NCBI GenBank assembly: GCA_009785215.1
Contig: WQWU01000007.1
Location: forward strand, 1 to 56,175
Reading direction: 5' to 3'
Length of the DNA: 56,175 bases
From: Treponema sp.
Lineage (GTDB): Bacteria; Spirochaetota; Spirochaetia; Treponematales; Breznakiellaceae
Positions 27,863 to 56,175 of the stretch are shown one piece after another (positions within the stretch are counted from its first letter, which is position 1; each line of letters opens with the position of its first letter). Position numbers and translations under genes: made by a program. Under the pieces are notes generated by a model that saw nothing but the letters and a program-made list of their open reading frames with translations, ran no database searches and was not told the DNA's origin.

Positions 27863-27895
27863 CTTTACGAGAGGAGGGACTTGCCTTTCAGCCAT
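27863..27895 (-). repeat. Second copy of the tRNA-Leu 3' end plus GGCTGAAAGG spacer
   Basis: The 21 bases at 27863-27883 are identical to 27896-27916, the 3' end of tRNA-Leu and three flanking bases (CGAGAGGAGGGACTTG core on the plus strand). The 12-base spacer, read in tRNA sense, is AT-GGCTGAAAGG. The copy starts exactly at C56 of the T-loop (CAAGTCC). The same ten bases precede the duplicated end of tRNA-Pro at 45785. Confidence 0.85.
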
Positions 27896-27898
27896 CTT

Positions 27899-44320: not shown

Positions 44321-45364
44321 GTGAAAAAGATAAAAGCTGCCATTGTTGGACTTGGCAGAATAGCATCGCTTCTTGAAGAAGACGCGCTCCGCGAAAAGCC
44401 ATGCACACATGCAGGCGCGGTAACTTCCAGCGATGACTGCTTTATTGCTGCAGGCTGCGATACTAACGAAGAACGGCGGAAACTTTTTGCAGAAAAATGG
44501 AGCTGTAATGGAACGCAGGTTCAGGTTTTCAGCGATGCGGCGCAGATGCTTTCTTTGTTAAAACCTGAGATTTTTATAATAGCGACGCATCCGGACAGCC
44601 ATTACCATTACTGCCGTATCGCTTCAGAAATGCAGGTACCTGTTGTCATCTGCGAAAAACCTCTTGCAGACAGTATCGGTAAAGCAAAAAAAATAGCAAA
44701 GCTGGCGGCAAGCGGCGGTATTACTATAATTACAAATCATGAACGCCGCTATTCTCTGGATTATATCCGCATTAAAGAAATCTTGGAAGAAGAATCATTT
44801 GGTGCGCTTATTTCTGTTCATGCCAAATTATATATGGGAAAAACAATGCGTCTTTTAGATCAGCTCTGGCATGACGGAACTCATCTAGCCGATGCGATCA
44901 TGTTTCTTACAGATTCAGTATTGAAACACCGCCGTACCTGGGGCGCAAGTCTTACTTCTCGCAGCGGCACTGCCTGGCTTGACGGAGAATTGCAACAACA
45001 TAAATCTTCCTCTGCGTCTCCGCGTCTCTGCGTGAGGTCTTCTGGGATTCCTGTACTTATAGAGATTGGCGCTGGAAGAGACCACCTTGTTTTTGAAATT
45101 GAGTTCTCCTGCGAAAGAGGACGCCTGCGAATCGGCAATGGTATCTTCGAAATCTGGGAAAGCGTTCCAAGCCCTTATGCAGAAAAATTCCGTTCTTTAA
45201 AAAATACAGAAGAAACATTTCCAGGTGTTACAGGTTACTTTGCCAATATGATAAAAGATGCAGCTGCTTGTGTAAAAGACCCAAAGAAAAAACCTGTTTC
45301 CGGCGCAGCTGACGGGCTTAGGGTAATTGAATATTTAAACAGCGTAAAAAAATGGCGGAGCTAG
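44321..45364 (+). CDS. Gfo/Idh/MocA family oxidoreductase with a repeat-derived insert
   Basis: NAD(P)-dependent dehydrogenase for sugars or similar substrates, 347 residues. The Rossmann opening IVGLGRIASLLEEDAL, the EKPLADS motif with the catalytic-site lysine-proline, and a C-terminal alpha/beta domain with DQLWHDGTHLADAIMFL are visible. Residues about 228-240 (KSSSASPRLCVRSSG) are encoded by a dispersed DNA repeat like that in dxs, inserted in a beta-strand loop. The stop codon TAG overlaps the end of a MITE-like repeat, so the last residues may have been changed by its insertion. The start is GTG 44321 with GAGG upstream. It follows the pump genes by three bases. Confidence 0.88.
   Translation: MKKIKAAIVGLGRIASLLEEDALREKPCTHAGAVTSSDDCFIAAGCDTNEERRKLFAEKWSCNGTQVQVFSDAAQMLSLLKPEIFIIATHPDSHYHYCRIASEMQVPVVICEKPLADSIGKAKKIAKLAASGGITIITNHERRYSLDYIRIKEILEEESFGALISVHAKLYMGKTMRLLDQLWHDGTHLADAIMFLTDSVLKHRRTWGASLTSRSGTAWLDGELQQHKSSSASPRLCVRSSGIPVLIEIGAGRDHLVFEIEFSCERGRLRIGNGIFEIWESVPSPYAEKFRSLKNTEETFPGVTGYFANMIKDAAACVKDPKKKPVSGAADGLRVIEYLNSVKKWRS
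45001..45045 (-). repeat. Dispersed CTCACGCAGAGACGC-type repeat inside the oxidoreductase gene
   Basis: On the minus strand the segment reads CCTCACGCAGAGACGCGGAG ACGCAGAGG. Its core CTCAC-(GC)-AGAGACGC-R-GAGACG matches the dxs repeat at 6282-6301, in the opposite orientation relative to the host gene. It preserves the reading frame. Confidence 0.7.
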
Positions 45365-45519: not shown

Positions 45520-45592
45520 CGGAGGGTTGGATAGTGGCTATTCCGCCTGGTTTGGGACCAGGATGTCGGGGGTTCGAATCCCCCCTCTCCGA
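45520..45592 (+). tRNA. tRNA-Pro (anticodon TGG)
   Basis: Cloverleaf with acceptor CGGAGGG pairing CTCTCCG (one G-T pair), anticodon arm CCTGG-TTTGGGA-CCAGG giving TGG, T-arm GGGGG/CCCCC with loop TTCGAAT, discriminator A. CCA is not encoded. Its 3' end from C56 on is repeated 210 bases downstream. Confidence 0.93.
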
Positions 45593-45699
45593 ATAAAAAA
45601 CAAACACTGATAAATTGTTCAATTTTTATTAGATAACACAAAAGCATCTGTTAGGGGATTCGAAACGGAGCAATCCTGTAAATATGTAAGGCGTTAGCC
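45575..45699 (+). repeat. Direct repeat R1, tRNA-Pro 3' end plus 107 downstream bases
   Basis: The 125 bases begin at C56 of the tRNA-Pro T-loop (CGAATCC) and run to GCGTTAGCC. They match 45785-45911 over the whole length with scattered substitutions and small indels, roughly nine of ten positions by eye. The first 26 bases are identical. Confidence 0.9.
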
Positions 45700-45784
45700 T
45701 TATTTAGAATATTGATGCCGCATGGATGCGGCAGGATTGCGCAGACGGCCTGAAAACCCGAAACAGGAGTTGAGGGCTGAAAGG
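45700..45784 (+). repeat. Hairpin-bearing insert between R1 and R2
   Basis: An 85-base insert with the perfect hairpin GCCGCAT-GG-ATGCGGC (45717-45732). An outer stem joins R1 to the insert: GCAATCCTG (45670-45678) with CAGGATTGC (45732-45740). Within the stem lies AAGGC-GTTA-GCCTT (45688-45701). The insert then holds AGACGGCCTGAAA (45743-45755) and ends GGCTGAAAGG right before R2. GCATGGATGC and AGACGGCCTGAAA also occur in the element at 55.95 kb. Confidence 0.75.
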
Positions 45785-45911
45785 CGAATCCCCCCTCTCC
45801 GAATAAAAAAACAAATACTGATAAATTGTTCAATTTTTTATTAAATTATCACAAAAGTATCTATTGGGGATTCAAAACGCAGCAATCCAGTATATTCATA
45901 AGGCGTTAGCC
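45785..45911 (+). repeat. Direct repeat R2, second copy of the tRNA-Pro 3' end
   Basis: Copy of 45575-45699 starting exactly at the T-loop base C56. It lacks the 5' part of the tRNA and so is not a functional tRNA. It ends GCGTTAGCC and is followed by the promoter region of the chemosensory operon. Confidence 0.9.
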
Positions 45912-45975
45912 ATGTTAAAAATATAGTAATATTTGAGTTATTCCTCCTATTGTATTAAAATTAGAAATAATAATG

Positions 45976-55760: not shown

Positions 55761-55836
55761 AAACATAGTATTTTTAACTGTATTTAAGCAAAAAAAAGCT
55801 ACACTCCGAAAATGGAGCATCGCTTCTTATAGCGGA

Positions 55837-56043
55837 GATAGGACTTGCCTTACATTCGGCAACAAGCCTCCCTACGGTCGGCGAGCCGAATAGAAGTTTT
55901 TACTGCATCGCCATTCGGCGATGCGTCGGCTTCCATGTTGCCTCATTTCAGGCCGTCTTTTTTGCTGAACCAGCATCCATGCTGGTTCACCCTGTGGAAC
56001 CTTTCGGTTCCTTCAGGCACGCAAAGAAGTTTCAAGTCCTATC
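55837..56043. repeat. Hairpin-rich repeat with terminal inverted repeats
   Basis: GATAGGACTTG (55837-55847) and CAAGTCCTATC (56033-56043) are exact inverted repeats around about 185 bases that fold into perfect small hairpins: ATTCGGC/GCCGAAT (55854-55891), GCATCGCC/GGCGATGC (55905-55924), GAACCAGCAT/ATGCTGGTTC (55967-55988) and GGAACC/GGTTCC (55996-56011). On the minus strand it shares GCATGGATGC and AGACGGCCTGAAA with the tRNA-Pro insert. Its left edge on the minus strand is AAGG-CAAGTCC, the same junction as at tRNA-Leu. A plus-strand open frame across it is not a real gene. Confidence 0.75.
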
Positions 56044-56053
56044 TTGCTTTATA

Positions 56054-56175
56054 ATCGAGTAGGAGACCGCTCATTATTTGAGCGATCGACCTCTCACACC
56101 ACCGTGCGTACCGACCGGTACACGGCGGTTCAACAGAAACTATGACACAATTCTAATTGATTAAACTTTGCTTTC
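56054..56175 (-). mobile_element. Group II intron, 3' end (domains V and VI)
   Basis: On the minus strand 56131-56098 form a 34-base domain V: CCGCCGTG pairs with CACGGTGG, TACC with GGTA, with a CG two-base bulge, and the CGC catalytic triad near the base. Domain VI follows (GATCGCTC pairs with GAGCGGTC at 56087-56065), ending CCTACTCGAT at about 56054, which is the probable 3' splice end. The intron-encoded reverse transcriptase would lie to the right, beyond the window. The CGC triad is of the type found in bacterial group IIC introns. Confidence 0.75.

Follow-up and report, generated by a model that had tools for sequence, protein, structure and literature searches.

The window analysed here, a stretch of 56,175 nucleotides from a Treponema sp., carries a tRNA-Pro gene with two units behind it, the second of them truncated, and each unit opens with a copy of nucleotides 56-73 of the tRNA. 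Its relevant features, with their basis in brackets, are these:

45520 to 45592, plus strand: tRNA-Pro(TGG), the docking gene (ARAGORN; Rfam RF00005, 58 bits)
45575 to 45592, plus strand: tRNA nt 56-73, first copy of the duplicated tail (ARAGORN coordinates)
45575 to 45784, plus strand: unit 1, 210 bp, made of tRNA 56-73, spacer, P1-left and core (self-alignment, covariance model)
45593 to 45653, plus strand: AT-rich spacer of unit 1
45654 to 45662, plus strand: P1-left GGGGATTCG, the tRNA tail inverted from C56 on (family-wide pairing test)
45670 to 45740, plus strand: P2, with outer stem 45670-45678/45732-45740 and hairpins 45688-45701 and 45717-45732
45744 to 45785, plus strand: GACG followed by P3 (P3 is 45748-45785)
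45785 to 45802, plus strand: right copy of tRNA nt 56-73, which is also the start of unit 2
45785 to 45911, plus strand: unit 2, truncated within P2 after AAGGCGTTAGCC, its P1-left at 45866-45873
55832 to 56040, minus strand: second element of the window, with a long P3 and tail copy CAAGTCCTATCTCCGC (covariance model, 49.1 bits)
56054 to 56130, minus strand: end of a group II intron (RF00029, 41.1 bits against a cut-off of 40)
27863 to 27897, minus strand: remnant at tRNA-Leu(TAG), the tRNA tail CAAGTCCCTCCTCTCGTAAAG twice with 12 core-end bases between

The direct repeat behind tRNA-Pro (45575-45712 against 45785-45924) has 85.8% identity over 141 alignment columns (E 3e-34 within the window), and its copies begin exactly at C56 of the T-loop, at 45575 and 45785, 210 bp apart. 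An earlier note had described a 125-bp repeat starting at this base and framing a separate 85-base insert with hairpins. The repeat, its starting base and the hairpins all lie where it placed them, and the repeat is slightly longer than it stated; the separate insert does not stand, because half of the folded core falls within repeat copy 1, so that the natural unit is 45575-45784. The core of unit 1 terminates in AAGG, and its P3 carries a GNA/GNA loop and tandem GA/GA, with C56 of the right copy as its final base. No ORF of at least 80 aa overlaps unit 1, a simple detector finds no intrinsic terminator in its spacer, and no Rfam family except tRNA reaches its gathering threshold in the tRNA-Pro/element stretch. 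With the family covariance model R1, built from 14 aligned copies of which it is itself one, unit 1 scores 103 bits; together with 154 family matches, this places the repeat and fold at the locus beyond chance.

The source genome (1.9 Mb, 54 contigs, 74.7% complete) matches R1 at seven places. The docking gene of the element at 55832-56040 is out of view, with the contig end and a group II intron at that spot; the intron end lies directly upstream of the element, and the intron has apparently inserted into the spacer separating the core from its unseen tRNA. In a different part of the window, an oxidoreductase ORF (44321-45364) contains an in-frame insert of about 10 aa near 45005-45040, of CTCTGCGTCTCCGCGTCTCTGCGTGAGG-type coding sequence, which is shorter or missing in three aligned orthologues.

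The window unit is one copy of a large family; in the spirochaetes at large, its members stand behind tRNA genes of many kinds. R1 matches (E 1e-4) occur in at least 127 of the 195 genomes of the window's family, a lower bound set by strict filters, and in all 14 genomes that were searched more fully, with 5-21 matches each. In a phylum sample, 45 of 296 genomes carry matches (E 1e-6), again a lower bound because the filter was strict and few candidates were scored. Altogether, 154 matches (E ≤ 0.001) were collected from 100 sources. An exact-pattern scan of genomes gave at least 117 stretches, of which 11 loci were judged real from the pattern, a P1 check and reading, while the rest look like chance; among the real loci listed are six from Treponema sp. 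and one from Spirochaeta sp. The same scan of viral contigs gave 17 stretches, none of them convincing. Our literature search, conducted mostly without subscription journals and aimed in part at known analogues, recognised no description of this tRNA-docked family, which appears to be undescribed. Several elements are themselves interrupted: those at L031, L035 and L038, at contig ends of genome G043, and at L076 and L117 are broken in the second P2 hairpin, and the three G043 elements share the same interrupting sequence there, which extends up to the contig end; the pattern resembles targeting of this hairpin by an insertion sequence.

Of the 154 copies, 143 lie downstream of the 3' end of a same-strand tRNA or tmRNA gene, within 676 nt, and 108 of these within 100 nt. 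The other 11 comprise six that are interrupted or at contig ends, four with a tRNA-tail-like remnant (by reading) and one without any (L281:2149). A similar picture emerges at 20 loci from outside the family (other families, classes and beyond; 33 matches), 17 of which have a same-strand tRNA just upstream, one a tRNA on the other side (L394) and two none (L396, L406). The docking genes of 138 units span 17 tRNA families plus tmRNA, or 33 kinds by anticodon with tmRNA included.

In these 138 units (of 139 tRNA-bearing ones), identity between the tRNA and the right copy rises abruptly within the T-loop, from 0.05 at nt 54 and 0.10 at nt 55 to 0.93 at C56 and 0.93-0.98 through nt 73, although the comparison could move C56 by as much as 3 nt to reach the best match, with a bonus for a preceding TT, which favours identity after C56. 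Past nt 73, identity drops to 0.63 at the next base and then to about 0.4. The duplicated piece is therefore nt 56-73 (18 nt), stopping at the last encoded base of the tRNA, and the step at nt 55/56 places the entry of the element between U55 and C56. The spacer and P1-left together measure 60-79 nt in 63 of 118 units. Units also stand head to tail in arrays of two to five, such as four at tRNA-Gln (G038) and five at tRNA-Asn (G394), and the printed arrays leave no space for an integrase gene. At two loci (L219:3640-3900 and L278:440-700), the tail copy and P1 extend over the T-loop TT and part of the T stem, and ARAGORN does not recognise the tRNA-like sequence upstream.

The core has a conserved fold. 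Inverted boundary boxes pair around a structured centre of variable sequence, as covariation in P1, P2 and P3 and a P1 swap test indicate. Specifically, RNAalifold on the 14 copies gives 26 pairs, 15 of them with compensatory change; pairing cells amount to 94.5% versus 74.8% in shuffles and double-change cells to 68 versus 18.5, in a test that favours the structure in that it was derived from the same 14 sequences. When partner columns are slid by 1-3, every covariation measure falls. In alignment A3, which holds 150 of the 154 matches, related to each other and fitted to the model, the tandem GA/GA mismatch of P3 is kept in 105 of 106 parseable copies and the GNA/GNA loop in at least 99 of 106.

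The sequence of P1 follows the host gene. Across 134 units, 8.20 of the 9 P1-left positions pair with nt 57-65 of the unit's host tRNA, compared with 5.75 for other tRNAs and 6.16 in the best of 2000 permutations; by position, the paired fraction is 0.93-0.99 for nt 57-63 and drops to 0.82 at nt 64 and 0.60 at nt 65. Two genomes have units with similar cores at different genes. In G102, units at tRNA-His and tRNA-Arg have about 92% core identity and both P1 strands changed, and in G134, units at Ser(tga) and Ser(gct) have 96% core identity, with CCCAC in one tail, CCCTC in the other, and P1-left changed to match. This leaves two routes: P1-left is copied anew from the target, or the match is quickly restored by selection.

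The earlier note had read the tRNA-Pro locus as a tRNA-docked element whose own end restores the 3' end of the tRNA, and had proposed comparing empty and filled sites in other strains. The step at C56 supports that reading, and so does the comparison, made between species of one genus rather than between strains, in which filled and empty sites were both found; the outcome that the note had named as speaking against it, a lack of empty sites and of mobile relatives, did not occur. The note had missed the breadth of the family, the nature of P1-left as an inverted tail copy, the identity of the second copy as a truncated unit, and the other copy and the tRNA-Leu remnant in the window. A first attempt through CheA synteny was abandoned in favour of a search for the tRNA-Pro gene, as the stretches of six relatives contained no tRNA. 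A search of 39 congeneric genomes located the tRNA-Pro(TGG) gene in 30; R1 together with reading classes these 30 loci as 13 filled, 4 remnants, 12 empty and 1 cut by a contig end. Three of them have a common downstream gene and are, respectively, empty (L414), occupied by one unit (L415) and occupied by two (L418); L414 and L418 also share the upstream gene, with aa identities of 57% upstream and 69% downstream. In L415 and L418, the sequence that follows the final tail copy is similar to the trailer of the empty site, which puts the native trailer to the right of the element. Relatives of the window's own upstream gene (60-70% aa identity) lie beside an empty tRNA-Pro at five loci (L411, L412, L422, L427 and L438). 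From the filled/empty comparison, the donor would therefore have carried nt 56-73, the spacer, P1-left and the core, and the native tail would have been displaced rightward.

Taken together, we favour, with a probability of roughly 0.55, the reading that these units are non-coding mobile mini-cassettes that dock at tRNA genes via a folded single-strand site and are moved in trans by an enzyme encoded elsewhere. Comparison of sequences across loci brings out docking, the 56-73 duplication, a covarying fold, a matched P1, filled and empty sites and arrays, and mobility of the cassettes is well supported. We infer a single-stranded active form, excision or a circular or linear intermediate, and the enzyme with its class. 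In this model, a unit consists of tRNA nt 56-73, spacer, P1-left and the P2/P3 core, and its point of entry into a tRNA or tmRNA gene would be the step between U55 and C56. The nt 56-73 that it brings would complete the tRNA, and the displaced native tail would end up after the core. On the tRNA-sense strand, the end of the core and the tail would fold into a branched structure with two half-sites, P1, which is common to the element and the tRNA, and P3. Joining of this folded strand to the T-loop, comparable to the joining of attC and attI by IntI, would be the work of a recombinase that reads structure and is encoded at another site, and repeated entry at C56 would build head-to-tail arrays. 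The scarcity of G-T pairs, the better folding of the tRNA-sense strand and the terminators between tRNA and core in some units, all described below, also speak for this reading. Against it, the candidate recombinase A2 does not co-occur with the elements (below), neither an excised form nor movement was seen, P1 pairing weakens at nt 65, attC is recombined as the bottom strand whereas the tRNA-sense strand folds better here, and near-identical units of an array could also stem from unequal crossover.

The integron gene cassette is among the closest known parallels. Integron cassettes are ordered as the 3' part of R', payload, R'', folded hairpin and the cut before R', and their boundary boxes follow the R-box consensus. 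The docked units are alike in their order (C56-73, spacer, P1-left, core, then the cut before C56), in their head-to-tail arrays and in a structure that is kept while sequence varies. They are unlike integrons in that the recombinase nearest to integron integrases, A2, does not co-occur with them (4 of 45 element-bearing phylum genomes) and in having no attI, each tRNA being its own platform. Furthermore, an integron cassette usually has an ORF, whereas the window unit has none of 80 aa or more. One genome with 19 R1 matches is, we presume, that of T. primitia. T. primitia and T. azotonutricium, both termite treponemes, are reported to lack integrons (PMC3607928). PMC2727003 describes attC sites of 57-142 nt whose R'' and R' pair when folded, whose structure is read rather than their sequence, and which are recombined as the bottom strand; here, in contrast, predicted folding favours the tRNA-sense strand (141 of 144 copies), there is an extra branch, P2, and the P1 boxes are tRNA sequence. 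The integron-like cassette order, together with the T-loop crossover by a phage integrase that PMC1762012 proposes for Ms6, led us to propose that a folded-strand site is recombined with the tRNA T-loop in trans.

That same T-loop crossover also speaks for an alternative, an ordinary double-stranded mini integrative element, moved in trans at the T-loop by the tyrosine integrase of a phage or island, with the core as no more than an arm-binding or regulatory region. A restored target plus a displaced fragment is a signature of islands according to PMC4383910, and the 56-73 block equals such an att block. The likeness to tRNA/tmRNA islands and prophages of the T-loop class thus includes the element-borne tail that rebuilds the gene, the displaced tail at the far end and the crossover in the T-loop. 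The docked cassette is unlike these islands in being small, gene-free and without an integrase, and in having a conserved fold, an inverted tail copy and dozens of target genes. An inverted tail copy is needless for a double-stranded site, yet P1-left tracks each tRNA; moreover, the half-site at the core end before C56 varies (AAGG in 51, AAGC in 15, ACCC in 10 and AAGA in 8 of 138 units) while pairing persists. One element also had no match when compared by distant blastn with 50,697 phage and 72,556 plasmid records. We therefore regard a double-stranded integrative element as unlikely. A probable island does touch the family: in G033 (C1:1505000-1524500; L237 and L281), a tRNA-Met 3' fragment with an element behind it lies about 15 kb from an intact tRNA-Met, and an integrase gene stands just within the stretch between them; the island seems to have split a tRNA-Met that already bore an element.

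Hairpins of a single-stranded unit could instead be read by a transposase of the HUH/Y1 type (IS200/IS605 or RAYT-like), with one cut following GGTT in the T arm and another following the core. The folded tRNA-sense strand with its conserved GA mismatches, the lack of a fixed-sequence inverted terminal repeat and an empty site consistent with precise removal or insertion all suit such an enzyme, but GGTT at one cut does not resemble AAGG or its variants at the other, and we consider this explanation decidedly improbable. Small gene-free repeats offer partial parallels as well. REP/RAYT and other palindromic repeats are dispersed hairpin elements without genes, and MITEs are likewise small, gene-free and dispersed, and have an autonomous partner, a duplicated target and terminal inverted repeats of fixed sequence. 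The cassettes, unlike REP elements, are tied to one tRNA base and have a larger fold, and, unlike MITEs, have inverted ends that copy the host tRNA rather than a transposon, with an 18-nt duplication (56-73) present.

Whether the fold acts as DNA or as RNA bears on a further alternative, a SINE-like retroelement, in which an RNA with a tRNA tail would be reverse transcribed into a tRNA gene. With DNA energies, the tRNA-sense strand is the better fold in 141 of 144 copies (of 150), by a mean of 2.9 kcal/mol; this strand preference, and the group II intron near one copy, would fit a retroelement. In P2 and P3, G-T pairs outnumber A-C pairs by 40 to 14 in the model-fitted alignment; yet G-T makes up 1.8% of their pairs versus 9.4% in the stems of 148 tRNAs from the same loci, a roughly fivefold scarcity of wobble pairs, so a folded DNA strand fits better than RNA, in an alignment fitted to the model and of related copies. 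Additionally, 20 of 118 units have an intrinsic terminator between tRNA and core, compared with 5 of 590 shuffled spacers, as called by a crude detector that finds none in the other 98, the window's included, and with a few "spacers" of second units that contain the first unit. In those 20 units, a transcript of the tRNA would be expected to stop short of the core; the idea that the core is generally part of that transcript is thereby weakened, not excluded. The junctions inspected by eye bear no trace of CCA. Priming of reverse transcription by the tRNA was considered too, as P1-left resembles a primer binding site, and was rejected, since no CCA complement precedes it at the junctions so inspected. 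A retroelement thus appears very unlikely. The units might also be immobile, a structured RNA or a processing element downstream of tRNA genes that reached its distribution through vertical inheritance and duplication in place. This would account for the strong covariation, the phylum-wide spread and, by unequal crossover, the arrays, but is highly improbable given that loci with the same neighbours occur both filled and empty, that similar cores sit at different tRNAs with P1 switched, and that presence is patchy (at least 127 of 195 genomes).

Among tyrosine recombinases, the class in which the earlier note had suggested looking for a linked enzyme, the strongest candidate does not co-occur with the elements. 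This candidate, A2, is present as a third tyrosine recombinase in many of these genomes and is mostly about 395 aa long, with an extra N-terminal stretch that has no Pfam match in six scanned proteins. Its nearest NCBIfam model is XerA/integron integrase; eight A2 proteins score 186-216 bits against the TIGR02249 cut-off of 265, so that none passes TIGR02249, and one of the eight passes NF040815. A2 is present in 69 of 195 family genomes (for example L225:532-1716 and L229:5220-6407) and was examined as a mobiliser because, in one genome (L225), it lies beside tRNA-Asp and an element. That locus is the only one of nine A2 loci with an element; at a tenth (G039:C72), an A2 fragment lies some 9 kb from two elements. 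Among near-complete family genomes, A2 occurs in 17 of 27 element-bearing and 8 of 15 element-free ones, partial matches counted, and in the phylum in 4 of 45 element-bearing versus 41 of 251 element-free genomes, the two draws of 296 being taken as one set. Co-occurrence therefore fails in both samples, and A2 is rejected as a general mobiliser. No autonomous partner element was found among the loci examined. Two near-complete genomes, G014 with 7 copies and G016 with 10, each show just a pair of PF00589 genes, separated by about 5 kb and presumably the housekeeping XerC/XerD; we considered XerC/XerD because these genomes show no other tyrosine recombinases.

By the features tested, the family is not an integron, nor an island in the Islander sense, nor an Rfam family above threshold, and the finding of its enzyme could place it near integrons or IS200/IS605. 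More tentatively, and with less confidence than in the mini-cassette reading itself, we suggest that it may represent a new class of mobile DNA, a "tRNA integron" of gene-free folded single-strand cassettes that use the tRNA gene as platform, are retargeted via P1 recopying or matching, and are moved in trans, possibly by XerC/XerD. As Islander requires an integrase (PMC4383910), Islander would not list such cassettes, and island finders with this requirement overlook elements of this kind. If docking at one tRNA base holds phylum-wide, the cassettes would, in our judgement, be among the smallest site-specific mobile units. Their fold would add to integrons another, independent example of DNA attachment sites recognised by structure, and the inverted arm matched to each tRNA makes target switching of mobile DNA testable.
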